Shown: positions 12,381 to 63,884 of the stretch, in pieces
Layout of the letters: each line of letters starts with the position of its first letter
Position numbering within the stretch: the first letter of the stretch is position 1
From: Deltaproteobacteria bacterium
GTDB taxonomy: Bacteria; Desulfobacterota; GWC2-55-46; JADFVP01
NCBI GenBank assembly: GCA_029262515.1
Contig: JAJCZH010000038.1
Span: 1-64,000 of the forward strand
DNA length: 64,000 nt
Reading direction: 5' to 3'
Notes under the pieces: generated by a model
What the model saw: only the letters and a program-made list of their open reading frames with translations
What the model was told of the DNA's origin: nothing
Database searches by the model: none
Translations under genes and position numbers: made by a program

Positions 12381-13598
12381 ATGAAAAAAATGAGTAGAAT
12401 GTATAATAAAATACTGCTCTGCCTCGACAACTCGGAGCACTCGACAACAGCCATTGACTTCGCACTCTCTTTTGCCAAGTCAACCGGGGCGGAAGTAACC
12501 GGTTGCCATGTCTATGCGGCAAAACTTCACGACTCAAGGTTTGCGGAAATGGAGAGCGGCCTTCCTGAGAGGTACCAGAACCCGGAAGAGTTGACGCGTC
12601 AGAGGGTTATCCACGACGATCTTATCACAAAGGGGCTTCTGACAATTTCCGACTCTTACATCGACGTACTGGTCAATAAGGCGCAAGGGTTCGGTATCAC
12701 AACAAAGTCCGTACACCTGGAAGGTCGAAATTTCGAAGAGATCGTAAAAGAGAGCATCAGAGGTGAGTACGATATGGTCGTGCTCGGCGCACTCGGATTA
12801 GGCGCCACCAGCAAAAGCTCTTCCGGCTCCGTTACCCGCAGGGTAGCGCGCATGGCCAACACCGACGTATTGATCGTACGCGATACAGGCTTTAACCAAA
12901 ACAGTTCCGGCAAGATTGCCGTTGCTATAGACGGAAGCCCGCACTCGTTCGGCGCGCTAAAAAGCGCCATTGAGTTCTCGCGCACCTTCTCATGCGAAAT
13001 CGAGGCAGTCAGCGCCTTTGACCCTGTTTTTCACTACACCGCATTCCGTTCTATCGCCGGGGTCTTGAGCGAAGAGGCTGGCAAGATCTTCAGGTTCAAA
13101 GAACAGGAGAAGCTCCATAAAGAGATCATCGACGACGGACTCGAGAAGATTTACCGGCGCCACCTCGACACAGCCGTGATGGTTGCAAAATCAGAAGGGG
13201 TCGATATAGCAACCAGGCTCTTTTCCGGCAAGGCAACCGACGAGGTCATGGGCTACCTCAGCAAAGAGGAGCCGTTCCTGCTCGTTACAGGTAAAACCGG
13301 GCTTCACGCCACAGAAGATCTCGACATAGGAAACCTCACCGAAGAGTGCTTAAACGGTGTAAACTGCAATATGTTAATTACCACATCAACTTATACTCCA
13401 ACTACGATAGACACCGATTGCAGTACCGCTGCGTGCAGACCCCACTGGAGTTTGGAAGCAGAAGAGATACTGAACAAGATACCCTCGTTTGCACGCGCAA
13501 TCGCGCGAAACATGGTCGAGCAGAGCGCGATTAAAGAGGGTATGGACGAGATAGATGCAGACTTCATGTACGAGATAAGAAAACGGACGGGTTTTTAA
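12381..13598 (+). CDS. Tandem universal stress protein with C-terminal PCP_red domain
   Basis: The 405-residue protein has two UspA domains. The first (about 7-170) starts MYNKILLCLDNSEHS and ends with the ATP-loop GALGLGATSKSSSGSVTRR; the second (about 175-335) starts GKIAVAIDGSPHSFGALKSA and has VTGKTGLH with a less canonical loop. The last 50 residues (WSLEAEEILNKIPSFARAI onward) fit the PCP_red domain (PF08369), which follows the catalytic part of the light-independent protochlorophyllide reductase B subunit. It is followed after 3 bases by a radical SAM gene that ends in the same domain, so the two are surely co-transcribed and probably work together. Start choice is weak: ATGs at 12381, 12390 and 12399 are possible, and none has a strong ribosome-binding site. 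Confidence 0.85.
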   Translation: MKKMSRMYNKILLCLDNSEHSTTAIDFALSFAKSTGAEVTGCHVYAAKLHDSRFAEMESGLPERYQNPEELTRQRVIHDDLITKGLLTISDSYIDVLVNKAQGFGITTKSVHLEGRNFEEIVKESIRGEYDMVVLGALGLGATSKSSSGSVTRRVARMANTDVLIVRDTGFNQNSSGKIAVAIDGSPHSFGALKSAIEFSRTFSCEIEAVSAFDPVFHYTAFRSIAGVLSEEAGKIFRFKEQEKLHKEIIDDGLEKIYRRHLDTAVMVAKSEGVDIATRLFSGKATDEVMGYLSKEEPFLLVTGKTGLHATEDLDIGNLTEECLNGVNCNMLITTSTYTPTTIDTDCSTAACRPHWSLEAEEILNKIPSFARAIARNMVEQSAIKEGMDEIDADFMYEIRKRTGF

Positions 13599-13601
13599 GG
13601 C

Positions 13602-14867
13602 ATGGCTCTCACAAGCTCTACAGTTATCAAAAAACAGGCGCCACCGTACTTGATCTCCTGGAACCTGACCAAAAGGTGTAACCTCAGGTGCGACCACTGC
13701 TATCTAAACTCCACCGAGCTAAACGGCGGCTCGGACATCAGTACCGCAGAGGCCACCGGCATTATAGACTCCGTTGCCGCACTGAGCCCAGGGGCCATGC
13801 TGATACTGACCGGAGGAGAGCCGCTTCTTCGGCCCGACATCTTCGATATTGCCTCTTATGCGGCAGATAGCGGCCTGACCCCGGTACTCGGAACAAATGG
13901 AACCCTCATCGACGAACAGACCATAAAGCAGATAAAAGCAAGTAATATCAAGGGTGTCGGGCTCAGTCTAGACTCAGTTACACCGCTCTTTCACGACCGG
14001 TTCAGAGCCCTGAAAGGCGCATGGGCCAAAACGCTCGGCGCTGCCGCTCTTCTGCATGAACACGCAATTGACTTCCAGTTCCAGTTCACGGTAATGCGTG
14101 AAAATATGGACCAGATTCAAGATGTTATAGAACTTGCAGCCGTTACGAATGCGCGTGCAATTAATATCTTTTTCCTCGTCTGTACGGGCAGAGGCAGCGA
14201 CAGAACCGACTTGACCCCTGAGGAGTACGAAGCAGCACTGCATCTTATAGCAGAGGCCGAGTCCAAATTTCGTGGGCGTTTAATGGTTCGTGCCCGTTGC
14301 GCGCCACATATACTTAGAATTGCTGACGAAACCAACATTGGCAAAATTGACAAAACTTCCGAGGCCGGTAGTACAGCAGGCTGCATAGCGGCCGACGGCT
14401 ACCTGAGAATCGCTCCCGACGGTGAAGTAACACCGTGTCCGTACATACCTGTCGAGAATTCCACACCCAACATCTTCACAGAGAACATCAAAGACATATG
14501 GGAAAAGGGTGAAGATTTCCAACTACTTAGAAGCAGCAGTCTTGGCGGCAAGTGCGGCGAGTGCGACTACTCGTTAGAGTGCGGCGGATGCAGGGCCCGC
14601 GCCCTTGCAACCACAGGAAACATAATGGGTGAAGACCCTCTGTGCGCCTACGAACCGCCGCGAAAAAGTGGTAATTTAGACATAAAAGAGAAGAAAAAAG
14701 AGGAAAAAACCGAGTGGTCTGAAGAAGCAATAAAGCGCCTCGACGCCGTTCCGCCCTTTCTTCAGACAATGGTCAAAACCGGAGTTGAACGGTACGCGAG
14801 GCACCGGGGGCTCAATATAATAACCCCGGAGGTAATGAAAGAGCTCAAGGGCAAAACCGGCATGTAG
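13602..14867 (+). CDS. Radical SAM/SPASM protein with C-terminal PCP_red domain
   Basis: The 421-residue protein has the radical SAM cluster motif CNLRCDHC (about residues 27-34), LTGGEPLLRPD, and a SPASM-type C-terminal set of cysteines (CIAADG, CPYIP, CGECDYSLECGGCRA, LCAY) that would bind a second or third iron-sulfur cluster. This layout resembles the AhbC, AhbD and NirJ enzymes of alternative haem and haem d1 synthesis, and also peptide-modifying SPASM enzymes. The final 50 residues (WSEEAIKRLDAVPPF to KGKTGM) are a PCP_red domain like that of the upstream gene. A tetrapyrrole-linked role fits both the domain and the nearby cytochrome operon, but the substrate is unknown. Confidence 0.85.
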   Translation: MALTSSTVIKKQAPPYLISWNLTKRCNLRCDHCYLNSTELNGGSDISTAEATGIIDSVAALSPGAMLILTGGEPLLRPDIFDIASYAADSGLTPVLGTNGTLIDEQTIKQIKASNIKGVGLSLDSVTPLFHDRFRALKGAWAKTLGAAALLHEHAIDFQFQFTVMRENMDQIQDVIELAAVTNARAINIFFLVCTGRGSDRTDLTPEEYEAALHLIAEAESKFRGRLMVRARCAPHILRIADETNIGKIDKTSEAGSTAGCIAADGYLRIAPDGEVTPCPYIPVENSTPNIFTENIKDIWEKGEDFQLLRSSSLGGKCGECDYSLECGGCRARALATTGNIMGEDPLCAYEPPRKSGNLDIKEKKKEEKTEWSEEAIKRLDAVPPFLQTMVKTGVERYARHRGLNIITPEVMKELKGKTGM

Positions 14868-15662: not shown

Positions 15663-17252
15663 TTAACCCTTTCCAACATTGCAGAGCCATACTATCTCCA
15701 CTCCAAGAACGAGTATAAAGATAAACGCTGGCAGTATATAGACCATCATATCACGCTCGGCCTCAAAGGCGAGGCTGCTCCAGACGGTCATCGTATGCTT
15801 TGAGCCGAACTCTGAGTTAGAGCCGTCCCAGAACGCGAATGCCACGGGCACCGTGGCCCCAGAGGCGATACTCTCCACTGCCTGCTCCCACTCCGTTAGC
15901 GAGCGCGTAACAAGCACCCGCCACGTTCCTTCGTCATAAAGGCCGACCCCGCTAAGCCCTGCCTCCCCGGCTCCTACAAAATTGAGGCTGCCGACACCTT
16001 CGGCCTCTATGAACCTGACTCCGTCTCCGGTACCTTTGCCAGGACCCTGCCAGAACCATATATCCACCGGCTTCTTTATATCCCCCATGCCGAAGTACGG
16101 GGTACCTGAAAAAGTCTCGCCGCTACGACCGTCAGATAGAGGCTCGCTTGGAAACTGTACGGCAGCCGCATCGACATAGACTCTCCCTCCCGCTATTACC
16201 TCCGAATCCCGATCTCCGGGCAAAGACTCGGTAGGGTCGTCCCACTCGATCAGCATCGCCACACTCTCGCGGTTATAGAGCACTTTGACCGAGACCGAGT
16301 CTAGAGAAGGCGTAAAGAGACGCTCTTTGGTTATTATCTGCGGAAAAATATACAGGCTCGCGTACTCTGCCCTGCTCCACTCAGGGGCAACGGGGCTTTC
16401 AGGCAGCGCCCCTGTTATCTTAACCGCCTCTATAACCGTACCCGGCACAGGCTCTTTATAAGGCTGCGCCAGAGTGACAACATAATTCGCCACGTCCCAT
16501 CTCTCGCTCTCGGAAAGAGACTTCCTCGATTTGGGGTCGGCAAATGCCGGCATCTGGGTACCTTCAATACCGAGGCTTATACGCGTAAAGATATCATCAA
16601 CTTTGGCGCCGGTGCGAAATAACCACGGTTTGGTAAGGTTACGCGCCCATGTCCTCTCACCGAGATCGTCCTTCAGCCTCTTCGAAGAGTTTCCACGGCC
16701 ATACATGCCGTGGCACTCGGAACACCTGTTGCGAAAGAGCTTTTTGCCGCTCGCCACGCTCTTATCAGTACTGGTAACGCGGCCTGAAAGATCGACCGTC
16801 TCAGCAGGAAGCGGCCCGTCTATATAAGCGAGCTTTAAAACATAGTCTGCAACGGCCTCTATCTCGGAGTTGGACAGGATACTGTCCCAACCGGGCATAG
16901 AGGTGCCGGTTATACCGCTCCAGTGCGAGGAATCGTCAGAAAGGCCCGCGATAAAGGCGTGCAGATCCTCTTTGGTAGGAAGCCCTGTACCGAACGCGGA
17001 CCTCTTCCACTTAAAAGTACCTAAAGAGAAGTCGCGCGGAGGTGGGTTGAGGTACTTTGCGGCAATACCGTAGCCGGTGCCTTCTGAATCGTGGCACCAG
17101 GCGCAACGCGCCTCGTAAATGGCCCGCCCTTCGCTTCCACTCTGCCCGCTTGCTCCAGTGGCGCCGGCCGCCAGACCGAGCCCACCGATAGCATCAACTG
17201 AAACACAGAGCAGAAGTAGTAGAATAAACTTGCAGGCCTTGTTAACAGACAT
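15663..17252 (-). CDS. Di-haem cytochrome c with EB_dh domain
   Basis: The 529-residue protein starts with a Sec signal peptide (VNKACKFILLLLLCVSV), then two class I cytochrome c domains with CAWCH (residues 50-54) and CSECH (177-181), then a region from about 280 to 500 that fits the ethylbenzene dehydrogenase/DMSO-reductase gamma-like haem-binding domain (EB_dh; note LIEWDDPTES and PYFGMGDIKKPVDIW). One C-terminal membrane helix (MMVYILPAFIFILVLGVEIVW) anchors it on the periplasmic face. It is the last gene of the bd-like operon, 22 bases after the previous one. It probably carries electrons between the periplasm and the CydA-like subunit, with up to three haems. Confidence 0.9.
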   Translation of the reverse strand: MSVNKACKFILLLLLCVSVDAIGGLGLAAGATGASGQSGSEGRAIYEARCAWCHDSEGTGYGIAAKYLNPPPRDFSLGTFKWKRSAFGTGLPTKEDLHAFIAGLSDDSSHWSGITGTSMPGWDSILSNSEIEAVADYVLKLAYIDGPLPAETVDLSGRVTSTDKSVASGKKLFRNRCSECHGMYGRGNSSKRLKDDLGERTWARNLTKPWLFRTGAKVDDIFTRISLGIEGTQMPAFADPKSRKSLSESERWDVANYVVTLAQPYKEPVPGTVIEAVKITGALPESPVAPEWSRAEYASLYIFPQIITKERLFTPSLDSVSVKVLYNRESVAMLIEWDDPTESLPGDRDSEVIAGGRVYVDAAAVQFPSEPLSDGRSGETFSGTPYFGMGDIKKPVDIWFWQGPGKGTGDGVRFIEAEGVGSLNFVGAGEAGLSGVGLYDEGTWRVLVTRSLTEWEQAVESIASGATVPVAFAFWDGSNSEFGSKHTMTVWSSLAFEAERDMMVYILPAFIFILVLGVEIVWLCNVGKG

Positions 17253-17273
17253 TCGAAACTCCGTAGTAACGGA

Positions 17274-18029
17274 TCAGTGGCTCCACTGCCTCGGTTTGTT
17301 ACCGGTATAGTCGTAGATAAAGAGTATCACTTTCCAGACCTCCTCTTCGTTCAGTATACCCTCCCAGGCAGGCATAGAGGAGGCCCACGGCCCCGCCTGC
17401 TTCGGCAGGCCAGGTCCGCCCTTTACCACGCGCCAGAAGACGTACGACTCTTGCAATTGCGAAATGGTGTCGGAACCCTGAAAGGTCAACGGACGCGGAG
17501 TGAGCGCATGGGCGTAGTGGCCCCTGCCGTCCAACTTGGCGCCGTGGCAGAAGAAACAGTTCTGAAAGTAGATATCTCCGCCCTCTTTGACATAACTCCT
17601 GAACCTCTCAGGCTCAGACGACTCTAAAGAGCGGAGCGGATTTTCGAGCGTGCCCAGATCGTAGGTCTGCCCGTAAGCCTCAATTACCGCCGGCGGAGCC
17701 GGATGAACGGACCTGAAGCCGACCACACCCTCGCTATCAGGCCGTACCGCCAGATAGGTAATGAGTGCTGCAAAAAGAGGCAGTATAACAAAGATAGTGT
17801 TGCGCTGGCGAACCCTGGCAGGCTCTTCAAGGAGTGCGATGATTGGCGAAAAAAGTTCGTTGGCCGAAGCGTCCGAGGTGGTCATAACGAGTATTGTGAC
17901 GATGGCCGCAAAGAAGAGATAGAGCAGAATCAGGCTCGACGGCACCGGCAGGCCGAAGAGAAGCCCCGGAAGCTTTAGCAGCACATAGATACCGAGTATA
18001 AGTAGAAAAAGTTTTAAGAGCTTATGCAT
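17274..18029 (-). CDS. Membrane-bound mono-haem cytochrome c
   Basis: The 251-residue protein has three predicted membrane helices in its first 100 residues (about 5-25, 31-51 and 78-96) and a periplasmic cytochrome c domain with one CFFCH haem site (158-162) and a distal Met candidate in ASSMPAWEGIL. Class I features such as NEEEVWKVILFIYDY follow. It is encoded 33 bases after the preceding cytochrome gene, in the same operon. A role as an electron carrier docked to the bd-like complex is inferred from context. Confidence 0.88.
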   Translation of the reverse strand: MHKLLKLFLLILGIYVLLKLPGLLFGLPVPSSLILLYLFFAAIVTILVMTTSDASANELFSPIIALLEEPARVRQRNTIFVILPLFAALITYLAVRPDSEGVVGFRSVHPAPPAVIEAYGQTYDLGTLENPLRSLESSEPERFRSYVKEGGDIYFQNCFFCHGAKLDGRGHYAHALTPRPLTFQGSDTISQLQESYVFWRVVKGGPGLPKQAGPWASSMPAWEGILNEEEVWKVILFIYDYTGNKPRQWSH

Positions 18030-18062
18030 AAGCTTCCGCTGTACGGGTCCTGAAGAGCAATG

Positions 18063-18629
18063 CTACTCTTCAGCTTCCTTACTGACCTTGCTCCGTGCGC
18101 CGTTCTTCTCTTCTGCTTTCGGACCGGCTCCCGGCATCTTCACCGTAACCTCAAGGCCTGAGATGGCCTGTAAGTACGCAATTACCGCAGCCAGCTCCAC
18201 TTCATTCAAAGAGATGCTTCCGGAGCTTACATCAGGCATCGGGCTTACAATCTTCTTACCGAGAAGCGTACCGTAACCTTCAACCACATAGACAGACGGT
18301 TCGACCATCGATTCCCTTAAGTAACCGACAGCATCCGTCGCAGTGCCGGTATATTGAGACGCGCCGTATCTGGACGCAGAAATTGCTGCTATTAAACTCA
18401 GTTCCGGGGCACGGTCTCCTGCGGAGTCGTGACACTGGGCGCAGCCCCCCCTGCCGTAGTAGACCTCTTCGCCATAGGCAACGGGCCCGACCTCTTCGAT
18501 AGGCAAGACCACCCTCTGCCGCTTACTTGACTTATGAGTATTGATATCAGGCACGTAATAGACGGAAAAGAGCGTATAAGAGAGTATCAAGAGTACGCCG
18601 AAACCGATTATCTTAATGAAATTATTCAT
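18063..18629 (-). CDS. Membrane-anchored mono-haem cytochrome c
   Basis: Taken from the ATG at 18629 (GGAGCAGG about 8 bases upstream) the protein is 188 residues: one N-terminal helix (IIGFGVLLILSYTLFSVYYV), then a periplasmic cytochrome c domain with CAQCH at residues 63-67 and a Met candidate in SPMPDVSSG, followed by LNEVELAAVIAYLQAI. It resembles the FixO/CcoO type of anchored mono-haem cytochrome in topology, though not in detail. A longer frame into the end of the preceding gene lacks a good start. The tail is charged (KAEEKNGARSKVSKEAEE). Confidence 0.86.
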   Translation of the reverse strand: MNNFIKIIGFGVLLILSYTLFSVYYVPDINTHKSSKRQRVVLPIEEVGPVAYGEEVYYGRGGCAQCHDSAGDRAPELSLIAAISASRYGASQYTGTATDAVGYLRESMVEPSVYVVEGYGTLLGKKIVSPMPDVSSGSISLNEVELAAVIAYLQAISGLEVTVKMPGAGPKAEEKNGARSKVSKEAEE

Positions 18630-18654
18630 AACAACCTGCTCCGAACAGATAGCC

Positions 18655-20598
18655 TCATACTTTGTTCTCTTCTCCTTTGCCAAGCGAAGAGAGCCAGAAG
18701 ATGAAAATAATCAAAGCCATAAAGACAATAGTGCCGAAGGAGACCACACGGGCGGCATATGCTATTGACGGGGTGTACGCCTCAGGGGAGTTGTCCTTCA
18801 TAATAGAGTAGACGTGCCAGTTCTGCCTGATCGCCGAGCGCACAAAACCCATAAGACCCATAAGCCACGTAAAAGAGACCGCTATGAGCACAAGGGCGTA
18901 CTGGCTTCTGTCCGGCATCCGCCCCCACGTAAAACCACCGGCCCGTTCAGCGCGCCTGAAGATCAGCCACTCTATACAGAGCGAAAGAAGGATAACCGTC
19001 AGCGTAGTCATTACCTGCGGAATAGAGGAGACAACCTTATATACATTGTCGGTATAGTAACCGTAGTAGACGCCAAGAAAGATTATATTGAGTATCGCTG
19101 CACCGAAGAGTCCAACCTCTACGGCAGTTGCGGTCGAGGCCCACGGCACAGTAGAGGCCTTACCAGAGCGTCTGTACAAGAGGAAGCTGATGTAGGTGAA
19201 GATAACCATGATGTTTACCGCCGTGTTCTTGGCTGGCATTAAACCCAGGGCCTTCAGCCACGGGTGGTACTGCCCTCCGAGCGCACTCGTCTCGGAAGCG
19301 GTAAGCACTATATTGTGCGGGGTGAACCAGACGAGAAAAGAGAGGACCAGAACGATTGCTATGTATTTAATGTAACCGGTGTATCTGTTGCCACCTTCGG
19401 CCCTGCCCATGCCGCACCAGAGATAGTAATTGGCCGCAAGAAAAAGCGCCCCGATCAAGACCGCCTGAATGATGAAGAGCCATCCAAAGACCCCGCCCAT
19501 AAGCGTTATACCCATCTGCTGGCTGTATGAATATATCTCTGCCGTAAGCCAGTACCCTGCAAAAGGAATAGGCAGAAGCGCGCCGATTGCGATGAGGCTC
19601 GCGGTATAACCCATCCAGTCATAATGGGCCCTCGATGCCTGACTCTTCGAACTCAGGTACTGATACGCCGCATACGCCCCGACAATCGAACCGCCGTAGG
19701 CTATGTTCGCAACAAACCTGTGCAGGTTCATCGGGCTCCATAGATGGTTATTTATTGCAGCGAAGACCCCGCCCTGAAAGGCACCCATTTTATCCACGCC
19801 CGCAGGCGACATCATAAAGGTAACCCACGCGTTTGCGATAAACATCAACGCCGTGCCGGACATGTTAAGAAGAAGACCGACGAAGAGGTGGAGCCTCTTC
19901 AGGCCGCCGCCGTCATTCATAATACCCCAGCCGTAGTAGTAGATATAAAGGGTTATGCTCTCAATGAAGAACAGTAGACCGTAACCGAGCATCGTGGAGC
20001 CGAAGACGGACGAGAGGTAACCCATAAGAGCAGGGTAGAAGACTACGAGCGATAGCAGCAGAAGACCGCCGGTGATTGCTGTTATGGAGTAGGCGGTTAT
20101 GGAGACACGGATAAATTCATATGCGGTTCTGTCATAGCGGCTGTCACCCGTAACCATACCGATGACCTCAAGTATCAGCACGAAGATAGGAACCGCCAGC
20201 ACAAACGCCGCAAACCAGAGGTGCATCTGCGCGGCCAGCCATACGGTCACCCTTGGGCTCACTCCCTCAACGACAGGGTAATCCTTGGCCTCTAAAGCAG
20301 GTGCCGGAGGCCCCTTCTTCAGCCTCTTCGATTTTCCGGCTTTGTAAGACTTGATGAGTTCGGAGGCCTTATCTTTTACTTCTACACCTTCAACAGCTTT
20401 GACTGCACCGGATTCAACCGTACTGGAAACCTGTGCCACCTGCGTTTCCGCAGAAAATGCGTGAGCGGGAATAACCTGTAAAAACAGAATAGACAGAAGC
20501 AGAAGCAGCGGCACCGCTACCCCGGGGCAGAAAAAAATGCCTAGGCCCGCCCTGCTCCTGGAGTTGATATGGTGAGATAAGTCCAAACGGTTACCCAT
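18655..20598 (-). CDS. Cytochrome bd-like oxidase subunit I (CydA-like), unusual
   Basis: The start at 20598 is favoured because its ATGGGTAA overlaps the stop of the upstream 37-residue gene, which suggests translational coupling. The protein is 647 residues. It begins with a signal peptide-like segment ending about residue 47 (IPAHAFSAE), then a basic linker, then a CydA fold with about nine to ten helices. Haem-ligand candidates are His in AAQMHLWFA and His in MNLHRFVAN. The quinol-binding GRQPW motif of true CydA is absent; the equivalent place reads LTAEIYSYSQQMG. No CydB gene is adjacent. Context with three cytochromes c suggests it exchanges electrons with c-type haem rather than quinol. 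Similar bd-like proteins are known from Nitrospira and relatives. Confidence 0.85.
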   Translation of the reverse strand: MGNRLDLSHHINSRSRAGLGIFFCPGVAVPLLLLLSILFLQVIPAHAFSAETQVAQVSSTVESGAVKAVEGVEVKDKASELIKSYKAGKSKRLKKGPPAPALEAKDYPVVEGVSPRVTVWLAAQMHLWFAAFVLAVPIFVLILEVIGMVTGDSRYDRTAYEFIRVSITAYSITAITGGLLLLSLVVFYPALMGYLSSVFGSTMLGYGLLFFIESITLYIYYYGWGIMNDGGGLKRLHLFVGLLLNMSGTALMFIANAWVTFMMSPAGVDKMGAFQGGVFAAINNHLWSPMNLHRFVANIAYGGSIVGAYAAYQYLSSKSQASRAHYDWMGYTASLIAIGALLPIPFAGYWLTAEIYSYSQQMGITLMGGVFGWLFIIQAVLIGALFLAANYYLWCGMGRAEGGNRYTGYIKYIAIVLVLSFLVWFTPHNIVLTASETSALGGQYHPWLKALGLMPAKNTAVNIMVIFTYISFLLYRRSGKASTVPWASTATAVEVGLFGAAILNIIFLGVYYGYYTDNVYKVVSSIPQVMTTLTVILLSLCIEWLIFRRAERAGGFTWGRMPDRSQYALVLIAVSFTWLMGLMGFVRSAIRQNWHVYSIMKDNSPEAYTPSIAYAARVVSFGTIVFMALIIFIFWLSSLGKGEENKV

Positions 20599-20704
20599 GA
20601 TATAAGAAACTGAGACCCCGAGCGCTGAACAGAAGCAGATCCATCGCCAGAAAGAGAAATGCAAAAGAGATAAAACCTACAACAAACGCAACAAGATCCT
20701 TCAT
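20591..20704 (-). CDS. 37-residue single-helix membrane peptide upstream of CydA-like gene
   Basis: The frame encodes MKDLVAFVVGFISFAFLFLA followed by MDLLLFSARGLSFLYHG. GGAG lies 8 bases before the ATG. Its stop codon overlaps the start of the CydA-like gene (ATGGGTAA). The single hydrophobic helix and position recall the accessory peptides CydX and CydH of bd oxidases, although I see no clear sequence match. It would be the first gene of the operon. Confidence 0.6.
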   Translation of the reverse strand: MKDLVAFVVGFISFAFLFLAMDLLLFSARGLSFLYHG

Positions 20705-20951: not shown

Positions 20952-20964
20952 TACGGAAGTGGGA

Positions 20965-21468
20965 ATGACAGCGCAAAAACAGGTGCTTGTACTCGGCATA
21001 GGTAATACCTTGATGGGAGACGACGGCCTCGGTGTGCGTATTATCGAAGCCTTTGAGCGGACGTACGAAGTTCCCTCTTGTGTGGAAGTGATCGACGGTG
21101 GCACCGGCGGACTCAAACTCCTGGAGCTTTTTCAAGATTTCGAGTCCGTTATAGTAATAGATGCAGTCGTATCGGACTCTCCAGCCGGTACGGTTCACGT
21201 GTACCGAGATGAAGAGTTAAGAGGCGCGAAACAGCCCGTAAGGGTCTCGGCGCACCAGATAGGGCTCTTTGAACTCTTGGAGACAGCCCGGCTAACCGGA
21301 CATGAACCATCCGTTAGCCTTATAGGCGTGGTGCCGGAACGAATCGCTCCCGGAGAGAATCTAAGCAAAAGAATAGAAAAGAGGACTACGTTGGTGGCGG
21401 AAAAGATCGTACAGGAACTGAAAAGACTCGACATAGAGTGTGAGACAAGGCCACTACCACATGCATGA
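20965..21468 (+). CDS. Hydrogenase maturation endopeptidase (HycI/HyaD family)
   Basis: The 167-residue protein from the ATG at 20965 (GGAAG 5 bases upstream; an in-frame GTG lies two codons earlier) has the family N-terminus VLVLGIGNTLMGDDGLGVR, the metal-site Asp in VIDAVVSD and His in VSAHQIGL. The protease removes the C-terminal tail of the hydrogenase large subunit after nickel has been inserted. It overlaps hypA (ATGCATGA). It indicates that a NiFe hydrogenase exists in the genome, although no large or small subunit gene is in this window. Confidence 0.92.
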   Translation: MTAQKQVLVLGIGNTLMGDDGLGVRIIEAFERTYEVPSCVEVIDGGTGGLKLLELFQDFESVIVIDAVVSDSPAGTVHVYRDEELRGAKQPVRVSAHQIGLFELLETARLTGHEPSVSLIGVVPERIAPGENLSKRIEKRTTLVAEKIVQELKRLDIECETRPLPHA

Positions 21469-21802
21469 GATTTCATTAATTAAGAGCATACTCAAGACTA
21501 TAGAGCACGAGATGGAGAAGTGCGGCGCTAAAAAGCTCAATAGCCTGACGCTCAGAATCGGTACGCTTACCGCCGTGGAGCCGGAAGCGATGCAGTTCGC
21601 CTTCAACTCTTCAATTGAAAAAACGGCCATGGAAGGCGCCACCCTATGTATAATAGAGACTAAACTCTCCGGGCGGTGCAGAGAGTGCGGCACGGAATTC
21701 GCACTTTCAGAGTTCGACTCACCCTGCCCTATCTGCGCAGGACTCGACATAAAAAGACTTACAGGAACAGAGCTTGACATAATCTCCATGGACGTAGATT
21801 AG
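21461..21802 (+). CDS. hypA: Hydrogenase nickel incorporation protein HypA
   Basis: The true start is the ATG at 21461, giving MHEISLI with the nickel-binding His2; it overlaps the previous stop. The protein is 113 residues with the zinc site CRECG and CPICAG. HypA delivers nickel to the hydrogenase precursor together with HypB. It is followed after 33 bases by hypB. Confidence 0.95.
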   Translation: MHEISLIKSILKTIEHEMEKCGAKKLNSLTLRIGTLTAVEPEAMQFAFNSSIEKTAMEGATLCIIETKLSGRCRECGTEFALSEFDSPCPICAGLDIKRLTGTELDIISMDVD

Positions 21803-21835
21803 TTCTACGGTTTACAGCGAACAGGGAAGAGACCG

Positions 21836-22534
21836 ATGCACGAGATACACCTAGAAGAGAAGATACTTAAGAAGAACGACGAAATCGCCGCCGGTACACG
21901 GGTGGCATTTAAAAAAATGGGTATCTTCTCCATTAACATGGTCAGCTCCCCCGGGGCCGGCAAGACCTCAATAATCGAAGAGACGGTAAAGCGGCTCGGA
22001 GCAGAAGCCGAAGGCATAGCCGTAATAGAAGGTGATCAGGAGACCGATCTCGACAAGCAAAGAATCGAAAAATGCAACATACCGGCACACCAGATTACCA
22101 CCGGCAGGGCATGCCACCTCGACGCGGAGATGATCTGCTCGGCCCTTGAATGGGTGATGGAGCGGAAAGGGCTGAGGCTGCTCATAATAGAGAACGTAGG
22201 CAATATGGTCTGCCCGGCCGAATACGACCTCGGCGAAGAGATGATGGTAGCTGTGTTGAGCGTTGCCGAAGGCGACGACAAACCGCTCAAGTATCCGGCG
22301 CTCTTCAATGCGGCAGACGTACTGATAATAAACAAGACCGACCTTACCCCTCAGACCGACTTCGACTTAGAGCGTGCAAAAAAAAATGCCCTGAAGATCA
22401 ACCCCGGCCTGAAAATATTCACTACTTCATGCAGAACCGGTGAGGGAATCGATGAATGGTGCGCTTTTCTTGCAGGCCTCACTATCAAGGGACCCGCGAT
22501 CAAAGGTAAGCGCGAACACCGCTCCAGCCGTTAA
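21836..22534 (+). CDS. hypB: Hydrogenase maturation GTPase HypB
   Basis: The 232-residue SIMIBI-class GTPase has the P-loop SSPGAGKTS, the switch GDQETD, ENVGNMVCPAEYDLGE with its metal-binding Cys, and the NKTD base-recognition motif. The N-terminus is short and has neither a His-rich stretch nor a CxxCGC nickel site, so nickel storage is unlikely and the protein probably only drives GTP-dependent nickel transfer with HypA. It lies 15 bases before hypF. Confidence 0.95.
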   Translation: MHEIHLEEKILKKNDEIAAGTRVAFKKMGIFSINMVSSPGAGKTSIIEETVKRLGAEAEGIAVIEGDQETDLDKQRIEKCNIPAHQITTGRACHLDAEMICSALEWVMERKGLRLLIIENVGNMVCPAEYDLGEEMMVAVLSVAEGDDKPLKYPALFNAADVLIINKTDLTPQTDFDLERAKKNALKINPGLKIFTTSCRTGEGIDEWCAFLAGLTIKGPAIKGKREHRSSR

Positions 22535-22549
22535 GACGGAACAGAGCAT

Positions 22550-24907
22550 ATGCGCAGACGTATCGAAATAACCGGTGTGGTGCAGGGCGTCGGATTCCGT
22601 CCCTTTGTCTACAACCTCGCCCGCAATCTAGGCCTATCCGGTTGGTGCAGGAACAACAATGCAGGACTTTCAATCGAGGTAGAGGGAAATGAATTAGATT
22701 CGTTCATAGAGAAACTCCGGCTCTCACCTCCGCCGCTTGCCAGGATCGACAACCTTCGGGTAGAGAAGATACCGCCGCTTACAACAACTCCCGGCAAGTT
22801 CGTTATAGAGCCGAGCGCCGTAACATTAACAACTTCTGCCGCCTCTATCTCACCGGATATATCCACATGCCCCGACTGCATAGAAGAACTCTTTAACAGT
22901 AAAGACCGGCGTTACCTCTATCCTTTTATAAACTGCACCAATTGCGGCCCACGGTACTCCATTACCATGGGAGTTCCATACGACAGAACTCGCACCACAA
23001 TGGCGGACTTCAAAATGTGCGAAGAGTGCAGGGCCGAGTACGAAGACCCGGGCAACCGACGCTTTCATGCCCAGCCGAACTGCTGCGCCGAGTGCGGACC
23101 AAAAGTATGGGTAGAGGGTAACGGTACCAGAGGATATGAAGGGATTTGCAACTATGCGGCAATAGAGTTCGCACAGAAGGCAATAACCGACGGCGCCATA
23201 GTCGCCACAAAAGGGCTCGGCGGGTTTCATATAGCCTGCAATGCTACCGACGAAGACGCACTTGGACGTCTCCGTTCCTTCAAACGGGCTTCCCTTCTAA
23301 ACGGAAGTGCCCCTGGCAACAAACCCTTCGCTCTTATGGTCTCAACGCCTGACAGAGCAAGAGAGTTTGCAATAGCCGGTAAAGAGGAGCAGAGACTACT
23401 ATCAAGCGCAACAAGCCCCATACTGTTACTCGACAAGAGAGCTGGAGAAGCGCTGCCAAAGCCTGTCGCCCCGGGATGCGGTACATACGGGGTCATGCTG
23501 CCGTACACGCCGCTCCATCACCTGCTCTTTCACGGTGCGGGCAGTACGTTCAAGGCGCTTGTAATGACTAGCGGTAACTTGAGCGACGAACCGATTGAAA
23601 CCAATAACGAAGAAGCGGTAGAACGGCTCTCCGGCATCGCAGACCTCTTCTTGCTGCACGACCGCGCCATCCACTTGCGGATTGACGACTCCATAGCCAA
23701 GGTGGAGAATCATCGAATGAAGATCCTGCGCCGCGCTCGCGGCATAGCGCCGTTGGCAATTGGACTTATGGGTAAGGTGCCTAACGTGATCGCCTTCGGA
23801 GCGGAGCAGAAAAACACCTTCTGTATCGGCACAGAGTCGGTAGCAATATTGAGTCCGCACATCGGGGACCTCGACACAGTACGCGCCATTGAGTTCGAAA
23901 AAAAAAGCGTCGTGAGCCTGCTCAATACGAACAACGTAAACCCTCAAATAGTCGCACACGACCTCCACCCCGACTACCAGAGCACGCACCTTGCCAAAGA
24001 GTATGCCGGGGCCAACTCCATACCTAAAGAGTTGGTCTTCGCCGTACAGCACCACCACGCACATATCGTATCATGCAAAACAGAGCACGCACTCGAAGGC
24101 CAGGTAATCGGAGTTGCATTCGACGGCACCGGTGCCGGAGAGGACGGAAACATATGGGGTGGCGAGTTTCTTATTTCGGACAACAACACATACAGAAGAG
24201 CTGCCCACTTCAAATACGTGCCGATGGCCGGAGCCGAACGCGCGGTTCTGGAACCGTGGAGAATGGGACTCGGTTACATACTCGACGCTTATAACAAGAG
24301 CGCGGATGAAGTAGCCGACCGTATTCTGGGCAGAATAAGAAAGAGCCAACGAGCGACGATACTCAAGATGATCGAACAAAAAATCAACTCACCTCTCACA
24401 TCCAGCGTTGGCAGGCTCTTCGACGCTATCTCCTCTATCTTGAATATAAGGGACTACGTTACATACGAAGGCGAAGCGGCAGTAGAACTTGAGACGATAG
24501 CGGACTCTTTCTCAAGAACAAAGACTGATAAAGAAGAGACCGGATACTGTTATGCGATTACGGAACAGGCTCCATACGTCATTGACGTAGCCCCTACTGT
24601 TAAGGCTATAATAAAGGATATTGAATCAGGCGTGGCAAAAGGTAGAGTAGCGTTACGGTTTCACATAACGCTCGCTGAAATCATAACCGGCATCGCAGAA
24701 CGTCTGTCACAAGAGAACGGAATAAATGATATCGTACTCTCCGGCGGGGTCTTCCAGAACAGGCTTCTCTCTTTAATGGCGGAACAGAGGCTCACCTGCA
24801 AAGGGCTTACACCCTGGTTCAACGAAGCGGTGCCTACAAATGACGGCGGAATCTCACTCGGGCAGATGGTAGTAGCGACCGAGCGGTTCAAGAAAAGCAG
24901 GAGTTAA
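22550..24907 (+). CDS. hypF: Carbamoyltransferase HypF
   Basis: The 785-residue protein has the full HypF architecture: an acylphosphatase domain (1-90, VQGVGFRPFVYNLA), two zinc fingers with CPDC/CTNC and CEEC/CAEC, a YrdC-like domain (about 200-390, GLGGFHIACNA) and a Kae1/TobZ-like carbamoyltransferase domain (about 400-785, HHHAHI and AFDGTG). It converts carbamoyl phosphate to a carbamoyl group passed to HypE, the source of the cyanide ligands of the NiFe site. It is 2 bases from hypC and is full length. Confidence 0.96.
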   Translation: MRRRIEITGVVQGVGFRPFVYNLARNLGLSGWCRNNNAGLSIEVEGNELDSFIEKLRLSPPPLARIDNLRVEKIPPLTTTPGKFVIEPSAVTLTTSAASISPDISTCPDCIEELFNSKDRRYLYPFINCTNCGPRYSITMGVPYDRTRTTMADFKMCEECRAEYEDPGNRRFHAQPNCCAECGPKVWVEGNGTRGYEGICNYAAIEFAQKAITDGAIVATKGLGGFHIACNATDEDALGRLRSFKRASLLNGSAPGNKPFALMVSTPDRAREFAIAGKEEQRLLSSATSPILLLDKRAGEALPKPVAPGCGTYGVMLPYTPLHHLLFHGAGSTFKALVMTSGNLSDEPIETNNEEAVERLSGIADLFLLHDRAIHLRIDDSIAKVENHRMKILRRARGIAPLAIGLMGKVPNVIAFGAEQKNTFCIGTESVAILSPHIGDLDTVRAIEFEKKSVVSLLNTNNVNPQIVAHDLHPDYQSTHLAKEYAGANSIPKELVFAVQHHHAHIVSCKTEHALEGQVIGVAFDGTGAGEDGNIWGGEFLISDNNTYRRAAHFKYVPMAGAERAVLEPWRMGLGYILDAYNKSADEVADRILGRIRKSQRATILKMIEQKINSPLTSSVGRLFDAISSILNIRDYVTYEGEAAVELETIADSFSRTKTDKEETGYCYAITEQAPYVIDVAPTVKAIIKDIESGVAKGRVALRFHITLAEIITGIAERLSQENGINDIVLSGGVFQNRLLSLMAEQRLTCKGLTPWFNEAVPTNDGGISLGQMVVATERFKKSRS

Positions 24908-24909
24908 AG

Positions 24910-25116
24910 ATGTGCCTTGCAATACCTGGAAAGATACTCTCCATAGACGGGGATACGGCACGGATAGAGGTGCTCGGCAGCATCAAAAAAGCTAATCTTG
25001 CTCTGCTCGATAACCCATGCGAAGGCGAATACGTTTTAGTCCATGCCGGCTTTGTTATAGAGCGGGTCGATACCAAACGCGCAGAAGAGACCCTCTCCCT
25101 TATAGGGGAACTATGA
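24910..25116 (+). CDS. hypC: Hydrogenase assembly chaperone HypC
   Basis: The 68-residue protein starts MCLAIPGKI with the essential Cys2. HypC (also called HybG in one paralogue) brings the Fe(CN)2CO unit from HypD to the hydrogenase large subunit. Its stop overlaps the hypD start (ATGA). Confidence 0.95.
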   Translation: MCLAIPGKILSIDGDTARIEVLGSIKKANLALLDNPCEGEYVLVHAGFVIERVDTKRAEETLSLIGEL

Positions 25117-26228
25117 GCAAGAGCATGCACCAAAAAAAACCGAACTTCATAGACGAGTACCGGGAGCGAGAAGCGGCTACCCGGATACTCGAAAAGATTC
25201 ATGCGATCTCCACAAAAAAAATCACAATAATGGAGATCTGCGGCACGCACACCCACTCCGTCTCCAAGTACGGCATACGCAACAGCCTGCCGCCTAACAT
25301 TACCCTTATCTCAGGGCCCGGCTGCCCTGTCTGCGTAACGGCAAGCTCCGACATAAACCGCATCATCGACTTTGTAGAGACGCACCCGGACGTAACAGTA
25401 GCAACCTTCGGCGATATGATGCGGGTACCAGGCAGCTATTCGACATTGTCCGAGGCCAAGGCCAACGGCGCGGACATTCGTGTCGTCTACTCTCCGCTGA
25501 ACGCGATAGAATTCGCTGAAAAGGACCCTGACAAAGAGGTGCTTCTTTTTGCCGTCGGCTTCGAGACCACCTCTCCGACAGTAGCCGCTACCATAAAAAT
25601 AGCAAAAGAGAAGGGACTGAAAAACCTCTCGGTGCTCGCGCTCCATAAGTTAACGCCACCGGCGATGCGCGCACTTATGGACTCCGGCGGCATCCATATC
25701 GACGGCTTTATCTGTCCCGGCCACGTAACAGCTATAACAGGCTCCGAGGCCTACGCTTTTTTAGCCAGAGAGTATAAAGCACCGTGCGTGGTGGCGGGCT
25801 TTGAGCCGGTCGATCTGCTCTTAGGTGTATATATGCTCGTTAAACAGCTCGAGGAGGGTCGGGCAAATATAGAGATCGAGTACTCAAGGATCGTGCATCC
25901 AAACGGCAACAAAAAGGCGCAGCAGGTGCTCTTAGATGTCTTTACGCCAACCGATGCTCTCTGGCGCGGCATAGGAGAAATACCCGGTAGCGGCCTGAAG
26001 ATTAAAGAGGCTTACTCTGGCTTCGATGCCGAGCGCCGTTTCGAGATACCGTCAGGGCCGGAAATAGAACCGGACGGCTGTGACTGCGCAAGCGTGCTGA
26101 AGGGTCTGATAACGCCGCCGGAGTGCGCACTCTTTGGGACAGCCTGCACGCCGGAGAGACCGGTGGGTCCCTGCATGGTCTCATCCGAAGGCACATGCGC
26201 TGCCTACTACCGTTACAAGAGTCTTTAA
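25113..26228 (+). CDS. hypD: Hydrogenase Fe-cofactor assembly protein HypD
   Basis: The start at 25113 is fixed by the ATGA overlap with hypC; the frame is open further up but that part lies inside hypC. The 371-residue protein has MEICGTHTHS, the redox-active GPGCPVCVT, GFETTSPT and the C-terminal iron-sulfur cysteines (CDCASVLKG, PPECALFGTACTPERPVGPCM). HypD is the scaffold on which the Fe(CN)2CO group is built. It is followed by hypE after 30 bases. Confidence 0.96.
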   Translation: MSKSMHQKKPNFIDEYREREAATRILEKIHAISTKKITIMEICGTHTHSVSKYGIRNSLPPNITLISGPGCPVCVTASSDINRIIDFVETHPDVTVATFGDMMRVPGSYSTLSEAKANGADIRVVYSPLNAIEFAEKDPDKEVLLFAVGFETTSPTVAATIKIAKEKGLKNLSVLALHKLTPPAMRALMDSGGIHIDGFICPGHVTAITGSEAYAFLAREYKAPCVVAGFEPVDLLLGVYMLVKQLEEGRANIEIEYSRIVHPNGNKKAQQVLLDVFTPTDALWRGIGEIPGSGLKIKEAYSGFDAERRFEIPSGPEIEPDGCDCASVLKGLITPPECALFGTACTPERPVGPCMVSSEGTCAAYYRYKSL

Positions 26229-26258
26229 CCCAACACAAAAAAAGAAAGAGATACATAA

Positions 26259-27278
26259 ATGGACGCTAAAAAAATCGAGCTCTCGCACGGTAGCGGCGGC
26301 TTAAAGACAAGGCGACTTATAGAGGAGCTCTTTGCCCGTGAGTTCGACAACCCCCTGCTTGCCCCTCTAAACGATCAGGCCATATTCGGCCCGCTTTCGG
26401 GCAGGCTCGCCTTTACCACCGACTCGTATGTCGTCACACCGCTCTGTTTCCCCGGCGCGAATATAGGCAAACTCGCGGTCTGCGGAACCGTAAACGACCT
26501 GGCCGTCGGCGGGGCAAGACCGAAGTACCTTAGCGCCTCTTTCATAATCGAAGAGGGTATGGAGATAGGGGAACTTCGGGGTATCGTCCGCTCCATGGCT
26601 AAAACTGCGCAAGAGGCAGGCGTGGAAATAGTAACCGGAGATACCAAGGTGGTCGAGCGCGGCAAAGGCGACCGCCTATACATCAATACAGCAGGTATCG
26701 GGGTCATAGACGAAGGCCTAGAACTCGACCCGACAAGAATAAAACCGGGTGATGCAATAATACTCTCCGGTACAATCGGAGACCACGCCATCGCCGTCTT
26801 AACAGAACGAGAAGGCATTGAGCTTGAAACAGAGATCAAATCCGACTGTGCCGCACTCCATAAGATGATAGCAAAGATGCTGGAAGCAACAGGAAAAGGT
26901 AACGAAATAAAAGCGATGCGCGACGCAACGCGCGGAGGTGTGGCAACCGTGCTCACCGAATTTGCCGAGGCCTCTAAAACCTCTCTTCTGATTTTGGAAG
27001 AGGCCGTACCAATTAAAGAGTCCGTACGCGGAGCATGCGAGCTGCTCGGCTTCGACCCGCTCTACCTTGCAAACGAAGGCAAGATAGTGGCAATCGTAGG
27101 TAAAGAACGCGCGGAAGAAGTGCTGCAAATCATGAAGAACGACCAATACGGAAGAGACGCTGCCATAATCGGCAGTGTAGAGAGCGACCCGGTTGGAAAA
27201 ATAATACTGGAGACGACCATCGGCAACCGCCGTCCGCTTGAGATGCTCTCGGGCGAGCAGTTGCCGCGTATCTGTTAA
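26259..27278 (+). CDS. hypE: Carbamoyl-dehydratase HypE
   Basis: The 339-residue protein has AIR-synthase-type ATP-binding motifs (SHGSGGLKTRRLIEEL, DATRGGVATVLTE) and ends PRIC, with the C-terminal Cys that carries the thiocarboxamide later dehydrated to thiocyanate. It is the last recognised gene of the hyp operon. Confidence 0.96.
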   Translation: MDAKKIELSHGSGGLKTRRLIEELFAREFDNPLLAPLNDQAIFGPLSGRLAFTTDSYVVTPLCFPGANIGKLAVCGTVNDLAVGGARPKYLSASFIIEEGMEIGELRGIVRSMAKTAQEAGVEIVTGDTKVVERGKGDRLYINTAGIGVIDEGLELDPTRIKPGDAIILSGTIGDHAIAVLTEREGIELETEIKSDCAALHKMIAKMLEATGKGNEIKAMRDATRGGVATVLTEFAEASKTSLLILEEAVPIKESVRGACELLGFDPLYLANEGKIVAIVGKERAEEVLQIMKNDQYGRDAAIIGSVESDPVGKIILETTIGNRRPLEMLSGEQLPRIC

Positions 27279-40141: not shown

Positions 40142-41439
40142 TGAAGCTTACCTTGATAGAACCGAAGTACTTTAATATATGGGAGTCAATAGGGCTTGCA
40201 TATATCTCCAGCTACTGCAAAAAAAATTATGAGGGTCCGCTCGAAGTAGAGTACTTCCAGGGCTACTTCGATTCGGATAAAGAGATAATAGAAGGCGCGC
40301 GCGACTCCGATGTTGTGGGCTTCTCATGCACCTCACCAACATTTAAACACGGTGTTCAACTCGCCAGAGCACTAAAAGAGATTAACCCTAATATACATAT
40401 AGTCTTCGGCGGCTTTCACGTCTCGGCACTTGCCGAAACGATCGACGAAGAAGCCATAGATCAGTTTGTTGCGGGAGAGGGCGAGAGCGCTTTCCTGCAG
40501 ATTCTCAACGGCAACAGAGAACGCATTCTCTGCGGCGATGCGGTTGAGTTCGACTCTCTGCCGTGGCCCGACAGAGAGGTCATCAAAAACAGGCGAACCA
40601 TAGACCTCTGCGAGAAGATGGCAGGGGTGCGTATTACAAGTTTCCAGGCAAACAGGGTCTGTCCGTTCAGGTGCAGATTCTGTGCCGAAAAGACGGTTAC
40701 AGGCACCTTCAACAGAAAGACAAACCCCGTACGGTCGCGCGACGTATCCGACCTGCTCGATGAAATAGAAGCTGTCTCAAAAGAGTATGACCTCAATTAC
40801 TTTAAATTCGTGGACGCAACATTCGACACCTCGCCCGAGTACGTTATCGCCTTCTGCAAAGAGAAGATACGGCGCAAGGTAACTACCCGCTGGGAGTGCA
40901 TGATCCATGCCAGCATTGCGAACAGAGAGATGTTCAAATGGCTCAAAGAGGCGCAGTGCAACCAGATAAACGTCGGATGCGAAAGCGGCAGCCCGAAAAT
41001 ATTGAGAGAGATACAGAAAGGCACTACGGTAGAAAAGATCGAGTCTGTCTTTAAGTGGGCCAGGGAACACGGCATTGAACGGCGCGCCTTCTTCCTGCTC
41101 GGCATGCCGGGTGAGACAAAAGAGGACATAGAGATGACGGAACAGTTGGTCGAAAGAATAGAGCCTGAGGTCTTCGGAGTGACCATACTCTGCCCGTACC
41201 CCGGAAGCGACCTCTACGATAGTGAGTCGATGCAGGATATTGAGTGGGAACAGACGGACGAGTACTCGAACGACTTCTGGAGTACCGATCACTTTACAAA
41301 CTCTGAGCTCAAAGAGTGGCAGAAGTACCTGACAGACAAGTTCAAAGACCGGCTATCGTGGCATAACCGTATTACGATCGAGCAGAACGCCGACATGGAC
41401 TCTGCCTCCAAGGCCTCTACTGAGAGCAACTCCGAATGA
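40141..41439 (+). CDS. B12-binding radical SAM protein
   Basis: The 432-residue protein has an N-terminal cobalamin-binding Rossmann-like domain (VVGFSCTSPTFKHGV, VFGGFHVSAL), then a radical SAM domain with CPFRCRFCAEK and CESGSPKILREIQKGT. Members methylate or rearrange lipids, bacteriochlorophyll and glycans. Its gene overlaps both neighbours, so it acts in the same pathway. The substrate is unknown. Confidence 0.9.
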   Translation: MKLTLIEPKYFNIWESIGLAYISSYCKKNYEGPLEVEYFQGYFDSDKEIIEGARDSDVVGFSCTSPTFKHGVQLARALKEINPNIHIVFGGFHVSALAETIDEEAIDQFVAGEGESAFLQILNGNRERILCGDAVEFDSLPWPDREVIKNRRTIDLCEKMAGVRITSFQANRVCPFRCRFCAEKTVTGTFNRKTNPVRSRDVSDLLDEIEAVSKEYDLNYFKFVDATFDTSPEYVIAFCKEKIRRKVTTRWECMIHASIANREMFKWLKEAQCNQINVGCESGSPKILREIQKGTTVEKIESVFKWAREHGIERRAFFLLGMPGETKEDIEMTEQLVERIEPEVFGVTILCPYPGSDLYDSESMQDIEWEQTDEYSNDFWSTDHFTNSELKEWQKYLTDKFKDRLSWHNRITIEQNADMDSASKASTESNSE

Positions 41440-60258: not shown

Positions 60259-60286
60259 TTCGGTATTCTGTTCAGCTCTGTTCACC

Positions 60287-60314
60287 CTTGTCCCGGCCCT
60301 CAGGCCGGGGCAAG
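60287..60314 (+). other. Intercistronic hairpin
   Basis: CTTGTCCCGGCC-CTCA-GGCCGGGGCAAG, a 12-bp stem with one G-T pair and no T-run. It lies between the first two secreted-protein genes and may stabilise the upstream mRNA or attenuate the operon. Confidence 0.6.
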
Positions 60315-60391
60315 AGCAAGCTGCGCAACAGATCGAACTCAACAGCCAACCAGGCAGACATAATTGTTTTCACAAGTTTTACAAGGTAGTT

Positions 60392-61654: not shown

Positions 61655-61730
61655 GACTTTACGATGGCGTTTTACCGATCTTATGGATAGTTAAATCGGG
61701 ATAATTTAACCAGACAAGTATAAAAAGCTT

Positions 61731-63446: not shown

Positions 63447-63467
63447 CCATTTTTCTGGAGTCACCTT

Positions 63468-63884
63468 ATGAACAGACAATATAGACTCTTATTCATGATA
63501 CTCTTTCTGGTAATTACAACTCTTCCTGCAAGGGTCTGGGGGTTCGAAGAGCTGACCAATCAGGAACTCAACGCCGTGACTGCCGGTAGCGTTGACCCGG
63601 CCTATGATACCTCAGAAGCATTGACTCGCATTCCCTTCCACTATACAGGCAGCAAGGGCAAGATTGACGGAGAAGTATTTGTGCTGCCCATGAACACCTT
63701 TAACCAGCAAGGAACACTACAGCTGATGGACAATGCCCAATCAAACCTGCGCTCGCTCATCAACGTCAATGCCGTCAACTCACCGGTGCAGATACTCTTG
63801 AACCTGAACATAAACATCAACTCCACTATAGGCAATGTCAATCAGCTCAACAATCTGCTCTCGGGTAAAGGGTCATGGCGCTAA
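63468..63884 (+). CDS. Short secreted repeat protein, Fap-like component 4
   Basis: The 138-residue protein has a signal peptide (1-25), LTNQELNAVTAG (29-40) and a single module (LQLMDNAQSNLRSLINVNAV then ILLNLNININ and NQLNN). It has no Cys. CTGGAG lies 8 bases before the ATG. Its size suggests a nucleator, chaperone or minor subunit. Its stop overlaps the start of the next gene (ATGGCGCTAA). Confidence 0.72.
   Translation: MNRQYRLLFMILFLVITTLPARVWGFEELTNQELNAVTAGSVDPAYDTSEALTRIPFHYTGSKGKIDGEVFVLPMNTFNQQGTLQLMDNAQSNLRSLINVNAVNSPVQILLNLNININSTIGNVNQLNNLLSGKGSWR

Follow-up and report, generated by a model that had tools for sequence, protein, structure and literature searches.

A bd-like oxidase operon with three c-type cytochrome proteins and its association with a pair of PCP_red genes

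The window analysed here, a stretch of 64,000 nucleotides, is contig 38 of a deltaproteobacterial genome of 2.50 Mb that is estimated to be 98.45% complete and whose closest named relatives are proteobacterial and deltaproteobacterial metagenome-assembled genomes (MAGs). It carries an operon for a CydA-like protein, a bd-like oxidase subunit I, and three c-type cytochrome proteins. This four-gene set is the same in content as a cluster already described from Nitrospira, Nitrospina and anammox bacteria and is not new. The new part, and the part worth pursuing, is an adjoining pair of genes, missed by the initial annotation, whose products carry a PCP_red domain and which accompany bd-like CydA across several phyla. 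From the sequences we propose a bd-like reductase that is fed by cytochrome c and whose heme may be made, modified or inserted by the PCP_red pair. We give this reading about an even chance of being correct. The genes are as follows.

12381..13598, plus strand: two USP domains and a C-terminal PCP_red domain, proposed as a carrier or helper for tetrapyrroles (Usp 121 bits, PCP_red 48 bits)
13602..14867, plus strand: AhbD/NirJ-group radical SAM/SPASM protein that ends in a PCP_red domain, a proposed heme-modifying enzyme (Radical_SAM 83 bits, SPASM 33 bits, PCP_red 50 bits)
15663..17252, minus strand: diheme cytochrome c fused to an EB_dh/NxrC-type heme b domain (EB_dh 62 bits, Pfam cut-off 33.3)
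17274..18029, minus strand: membrane-anchored monoheme cytochrome c2 (CFFCH at 158; Cytochrome_CBB3 32.1 bits)
18063..18683, minus strand: monoheme cytochrome c1 with an N-terminal hydrophobic segment (CAQCH at 81)
18655..20664, minus strand: CydA-like protein (bd-like oxidase subunit I), without CydB (Cyt_bd_oxida_I, PF01654, 60.7 bits, Pfam cut-off 26.2)

The PCP_red pair and its association with bd-like CydA

The PCP_red pair (12381-14867, plus strand) is convergent with the operon. Both members emerged as recurring neighbours when the open reading frames (ORFs) of a locus set were clustered; the contig search behind this set gave at least 583 relatives, of which 80 were kept. In other genomes USP-PCP_red lies beside bd-like CydA or beside the radical SAM gene, and the pair is seen in three settings. 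One is the EB_dh module, as in locus L170, where the CydA-c1-c2-EB_dh set is flanked by PCP_red genes. Another is a CydA-like gene linked to ACIII (L171; ACIII assigned by eye), which the pair adjoins. The third is the operon of a molybdenum (Mo) enzyme (L157), in which radical SAM-PCP_red and USP-PCP_red stand directly before CydA, c1, c2, a TorD-like gene (named by eye) and the Mo alpha and iron-sulfur genes. The Nitrospinota stretches that were opened (L216-L222) hold USP-PCP_red and/or radical SAM-PCP_red elsewhere in the genome. An earlier report of a link between the radical SAM/USP pair and bd-like oxidases was not found in the literature searched, which does not prove its absence.

PCP_red and bd-like CydA co-occur across genomes. 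Among 59 relatives, 48 carry PCP_red and 49 a CydA-like gene, with both in 45, CydA only in 4, PCP_red only in 3 and neither in 7 (p 9e-5). This and the following Fisher p-values are guides only, since the sampled genomes share kinship and the test therefore overstates their independence. For a phylum sample of 296 genomes, bd-like CydA was separated from canonical CydA by a cut of 370 bits that was chosen after viewing the list; the best CydA matches of genomes under it are all at or below 65 bits, and G242 (62 bits, with a PCP_red match, possibly a distant bd-like case) was excluded from the count. PCP_red is present in 94 genomes of this sample, in 17/17 CydA-like carriers and in 77/279 non-carriers (p 1e-9). 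In 229 genomes of the class of one gammaproteobacterial locus, where our cut for CydA-like matches was 119 bits and the remainder lay below 27, there are 12 CydA-like and 15 PCP_red genomes, and PCP_red occurs in 10 of the 12 carriers and in 5 of the 217 non-carriers (p 2e-12). ORF lengths suggest that four of these five PCP-only genomes hold chlorophyll enzymes. PCP_red was further found in 42 of 43 named carriers that we picked from the 80 loci and, in a search for PCP_red alone, in 73 of 77 Nitrospinota genomes. Well-known genomes served as controls: among 14 of them, PF01654 occurs in 10 and PCP_red in one, the cyanobacterium Synechococcus, and 9 of the 10 genomes with PF01654 have no PCP_red.

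The association is also physical. In 23 genomes that we picked for having a CydA-like gene and PCP_red on one contig, the two lie 0.1-14 kb apart, mostly 3-6 kb, with at most about 7.5 kb in 22 genomes and 14 kb in one; one of the 22 closely linked genomes has PCP_red on both sides. In a separate comparison over 26 loci, radical SAM distances correlate with CydA distances (r 0.68), a value reached in 0 of 2000 permutations.

The radical SAM-PCP_red protein has the CX3CX2C motif and the SPASM cysteines of AhbD, but its scores are far below the cut-offs of the families with which it shares them: 289 bits for the AhbD model TIGR04545 (cut-off 500) and 172-278 bits for the NirJ models, among them NirJ2 with 278 (cut-off 500) and TIGR04051 with 175 (cut-off 515). 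We considered it as the heme b synthase of the organism and rejected this assignment, as the source genome encodes a separate, better AhbD (531 bits), which in contrast to the window protein is without PCP_red. AhbD/NirJ-type enzymes are described as cutting or altering tetrapyrrole side chains (PMC7242693). PCP_red itself is otherwise found in chlorophyll enzymes (protochlorophyllide reductase) and in siroheme-like proteins, which fits a tetrapyrrole role of the domain. This role is supported by L207 and L209, loci of other phylum genomes, in which PCP_red is N-terminal in proteins that by eye resemble siroheme/4Fe-4S sulfite reductases. The idea that PCP_red is specific to genomes with bd-like CydA was dropped, as it is not generally true: the phylum copies opened, which are a sample, sit mostly on other proteins, namely ORFs of about 262-287 residues (L207-L210, L212, L214) and once the end of a transporter (L215). 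A third PCP_red copy of the source genome lies away from the operon, in an ORF of 81 residues on contig 5 (about 74454-74588, L173).

Several observations weigh against a dedicated service of the pair to bd-like enzymes. Among the 51 loci that extend 3 kb past EB_dh, counts are low, with USP-PCP_red in 27, radical SAM-PCP_red in 25 and both in 22; greedy ORF calling and contig ends make such neighbour counts miss some genes. In the phylum sample, 77/279 genomes have PCP_red without bd-like CydA, and in most of the few that were opened it sits on another, sulfite-reductase-like protein. G222 has both PCP_red proteins and a cupredoxin-like gene without a CydA-like match, and PCP_red without such a match is also carried by G004, G021 and G015, the last in the radical SAM form. 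Conversely, G032, G034, G046, G049, G344, G476 and G577 have a CydA-like gene without PCP_red. Several of these counter-example genomes are fragmented or incomplete MAGs, and gaps may or may not explain them. The correlation of distances may come from shared ancestry alone. Finally, to our knowledge canonical bd oxidases make heme d without any such pair, which fits the control genomes.

The pair could accordingly have another role, in a second low-oxygen route to heme b, in heme d1 formation or in general chaperoning, and co-occur with bd-like CydA through shared lithotrophic lineages. Genomes such as G222 and G015, with the pair or one member and no CydA-like match, speak for this, as does a PPOX-like gene that often follows the pair in proteobacterial loci (19/51) and would be anticipated if it took part in heme synthesis. 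In some organisms AhbD is also the last enzyme of the heme route through coproporphyrin (PMC7242693). The source genome, however, has its own AhbD, no more than 7.5 kb separate the pair from the CydA-like gene in 22/23 genomes, also in different operon settings, and the radical SAM and CydA distances correlate. We hold such another role to be possible but rather doubtful. As for the PPOX-like gene (cluster 8), a fixed place in the locus is not supported for the window, where the cluster-8 member (41436-42869) looks like a different FAD protein and is 26 kb off.

The four-gene operon and its relatives

The operon spans 15663-20664 on the minus strand, and its intergenic gaps of about 20-35 nucleotides fit a single operon. 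The CydA-like ORF encodes 669 residues from a TTG start, and the real start may be downstream; for c1, a better ATG start lies at about 18629. The initial annotation had read the locus as a CydA-like operon with three c-type cytochrome proteins, four CXXCH sites and one EB_dh domain, and this holds, with one site each in c1 and c2 and two in the EB_dh fusion. In Pfam, the other operon proteins match Cytochrom_C or Cytochrome_CBB3, with c1 slightly under the cut-off. Several residues of these proteins are well kept among relatives. In c1, M149 is found in 84/85, and a second CXXCH, which the window protein does not have, in 63/85. In c2, M219 is found in 77/78 and H109 in 78/78. The EB_dh fusion keeps both CXXCH sites, M119 and M234 in 85/85; it scores 95 bits with TIGR03477, under the cut-off of that model, and its relatives in the PDB are 6h5l_B, 2ivf_C (EbdC) and 7b04_C (NxrC).

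In the neighbourhood survey, c1, c2 and EB_dh follow CydA in the same order and on the same strand in 49 of the 50 loci whose contig runs on for 5.5 kb or more past CydA, so that the four-gene order is not a matter of chance. Only L045 departs from this order, by three genes, mostly for beta-propeller proteins, that are inserted ahead of EB_dh. Among the 30 loci with less room, those with enough contig mostly keep the same order. The set is spread over Delta-, Alpha-, Beta- and Gammaproteobacteria and Nitrospinota. A second, diverged CydA stands upstream in 30/80 loci (27 of the 49 that have 8 kb or more on that side), usually within a tandem CydA-c1-c2-EB_dh module. HEAT and cupredoxin-like genes lie ahead of this second module in many proteobacterial loci. 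In L168 (17-8702), an arsenite-oxidase-type large subunit (TIGR02693 419 bits, cut-off 359) and a HEAT-repeat protein precede the CydA-like module. In the window, the genes divergent from the operon are [NiFe] hydrogenase maturation genes (20959-27278; by eye a HycI-like protease, HypA, HypB, HypF, HypD and HypE), which adjoin the operon in several deltaproteobacterial loci too.

Relatives in Nitrospira and its kin, to which the initial annotation had pointed, have the same cluster. In Nitrospira, one highly transcribed cluster encodes a bd-like oxidase together with an alternative NxrC and two cytochromes c that are bound to the membrane; it is kept in Nitrospina and anammox bacteria (PMC6606698). 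In Nitrospira moscoviensis, the bd-like_3 and bd-like_4 clusters with alt_NxrC_2 likewise hold the bd-like protein, two cytochromes c and an NxrC-like protein, and a second copy of the cluster follows after a few genes on the downstream side (PMC6606698), which resembles the tandem modules of our loci. N. moscoviensis is a nitrite oxidiser with several bd-like paralogues, whereas the window genome has one; the account of its cluster in PMC6606698 does not mention the radical SAM/USP pair where it describes these genes, and our own genome searches did not extend to Nitrospirota. Terminal oxidase complexes with bd-like proteins are also listed for Manganitrophus (PMC9040806). In Nitrospinota nearly all CydA belong to OR-N1 or OR-N2, with cytochrome c as likely donor and a CydAA' pair as likely form (PMC10839748). 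The OR-N/CydAA' bd-type reductases resemble the window protein in having no quinol site and a presumed cytochrome c donor (PMC10839748, PMC12342949).

The CydAA' form supposes two CydA-like subunits. The source genome has a single PF01654 match and no second such protein, and 37 of the 49 positive relatives also have one CydA-like match; an obligatory CydAA' pair therefore does not fit here, and this single-CydA lineage offers a test of the heterodimer idea. For anammox bacteria, the nitrite oxidoreductase (NXR) cluster presumably extends over kustd1699-1713. It contains a cydA-like gene, genes for several heme proteins and, a few genes from cydA, uspA (kustd1706) (PMC6423088).

Residues, fold and phylogeny of the CydA-like protein

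Residues were counted in an alignment of 75 main, 23 paralogous and 10 further bd-like sequences and 10 canonical CydA, the last being plasmid-borne. A plasmid search with the window protein gave 3 weak matches only. The E. coli numbers and roles that we assign to the aligned residues (H19, E99, E107, H186, E257, E445) are presumed ones. The N-terminal bundle is well kept: the column of H148 has His in 75/75 main, 23/23 paralogous, 9/10 further bd-like and 10/10 canonical sequences, that of H315 has His in every sequence of all four groups, and that of E235 has Glu in 74/75, 23/23, 9/10 and 10/10, respectively. Two other positions separate the groups. The column of Tyr228 has Tyr in 75/75 main and 23/23 paralogous sequences and Glu in 10/10 canonical ones. 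Intact quinol-site residues were sought in the alignment, and the quinol-loop Glu of 10/10 canonical sequences is Gly (Gly390) in 75/75 main and 23/23 paralogous sequences.

The initial annotation stated that the protein lacks the quinol-site motif GRQPW. The literal motif is indeed absent, yet the site has been altered and not lost. The region reads RQ(H/N)WH, with the Pro replaced by H/N615; Arg613 is found in 72/75, Gln614 in 67/75 and Trp616 in 75/75 sequences, and a His is added at 617 (75/75 main, 23/23 paralogous, 9/10 further bd-like, 0/10 canonical). We take GRQPW to adjoin the heme ligand E445 and not to be part of the quinol site proper, and the quinol residue E257 to be the position of G390. 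The canonical Glu that precedes GRQPW aligns to S610 in hhalign. ACIII-type clusters (L171, L172; by eye) end in a CydA-like gene that keeps Glu in the Ser610 column.

A structure model built from 25 sequences (mean pLDDT, the predicted local distance difference test, 72) has 14 helices of at least 19 residues between 137 and 661. Residues 131-666 superpose on solved CydA chains with Z 25-27 and a root-mean-square deviation of 3.8-4.1 over about 336-356 residues. Further matches of the model, with Z 15-17, are ACIII subunits. A hidden Markov model comparison with the ten canonical CydA covers the N-terminal bundle locally and the full length globally. The conserved core starts at about residue 119. 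The signal-like extension noted by the initial annotation is seen as a hydrophobic stretch at about residues 46-71, and by eye most orthologues are hydrophobic at the N-terminus there. With the presumed N-terminal heme ligands kept, the quinol residue lost, about 14 helices, in line with the extra helices that replace the Q-loop in such proteins, and c-type cytochromes alongside, the protein shows the traits of the bd-like (OR-N/OR-C) group. For a protein of this kind, PMC3578206 likewise describes 14 helices, with the heme b ligands retained and the quinol residues absent, and calls its function enigmatic.

In the tree, canonical and bd-like sequences are split at 100/100, and Nitrospinota sequences lie inside the group of the window protein; some of the internal branching of the bd-like part is weak, and the placement of L163, a long row, cannot be relied on. 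CydB (PF02322) gave 0 matches in the source genome, so that the lack of CydB from the operon is not made up for elsewhere in the assembly, while the same search was positive in 10/14 controls. Compared with canonical CydAB, the protein thus shares the CydA fold and the His and Glu residues of the N-terminal bundle, and differs in being without CydB, in Gly390 for the quinol-loop Glu and in RQ(H/N)WH for GRQPW.

Proposed electron route, acceptor and heme of the bd-like enzyme

The best reading of these sequences is that electrons come from cytochrome c and not from quinol, in agreement with what has been published on OR-N enzymes. It is favoured because the quinol-loop Glu is lost in all members, the c-type cytochromes stand in kept order and the EB_dh protein has a heme b domain. 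The donor that the initial annotation had suggested is in this respect supported; its interpretation overall is so in part. A donor would pass electrons in the periplasm to the diheme c/EB_dh heme b protein, and c1 and c2, both membrane-anchored, would carry them on to the hemes of the CydA-like subunit. Oxygen is the most likely acceptor and would be reduced by this subunit at the heme held by H148. The enzyme would need no CydB and, in this lineage, no second CydA-like subunit either.

The PCP_red proteins would be maturation factors of this enzyme. The radical SAM protein, a paralogue of AhbD/NirJ, may modify a heme or heme precursor, and USP-PCP_red may bind or deliver the modified heme, which would suit the altered ligand set of the CydA-like protein. 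That ligand set, together with the link to an enzyme of the AhbD/NirJ type, suggests that one heme is non-standard. More tentatively, and with less than an even chance, the pair could make and deliver an undescribed heme, side-chain-modified or chlorin-like, for the bd-like active site. If so, a heme type of their own would mark the bd-like oxidases found in nitrite oxidisers, anammox-like bacteria and sulfur bacteria, and the pair would be the first genes known to be devoted to heme maturation in the bd superfamily. For Nitrospira, Nitrospinota and their kin, bd-like oxidases have been proposed as the terminal oxidases, and the literature describes them as uncharacterised. The pair, as a two-gene mark that accompanies them in several phyla, points to where the cofactor may be sought and to a gene set to co-express.

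Alternatively, the complex may not be an oxidase, and electrons could run through it in the reverse direction, from a Mo enzyme of the periplasm, for instance NXR, to the quinone pool, as proposed for Nitrospina and Nitrospira clusters (PMC3578206, PMC6606698). The EB_dh/NxrC domain, the TorD-like, Mo alpha and iron-sulfur genes of the L157 operon and the other terminal oxidase-family genes of the source genome, which include several of the heme-copper oxidase family, are consistent with such a flow. It is nevertheless unlikely, as the quinol-loop Glu is absent in all members, the active-site His is kept and most loci, judged by ORF cluster and not by annotation of each ORF, are without an adjoining Mo enzyme. 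A Mo enzyme was likewise rejected as the fixed donor; one is nearby in L157, L168 and L169, and most loci have none.

For reduction of another acceptor, e.g. nitric oxide, one can point to the altered ligands, with Ser in the column of the canonical E445 and the new His617. Anaerobic anammox bacteria, moreover, transcribe a homologous cydA gene (PMC6423088). The source genome, however, already has a NorB-like gene with NorC-, NorQ- and NorD-like neighbours (L176; names by eye), and the closest literature treats such proteins as oxygen reductases, which makes another acceptor improbable. That the protein is a canonical quinol bd oxidase whose CydB was lost from the assembly is rejected as hardly credible: the source is a MAG and the protein does belong to PF01654, but no CydB is found in a 98.45%-complete genome, and the residue changes and the tree split at 100/100 set the protein apart.

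Elsewhere in the window, at 58990-63884, four successive secreted-looking proteins share a short N-terminal motif that ends in V-T/S-A/G-G after the signal region and are otherwise unlike in length.

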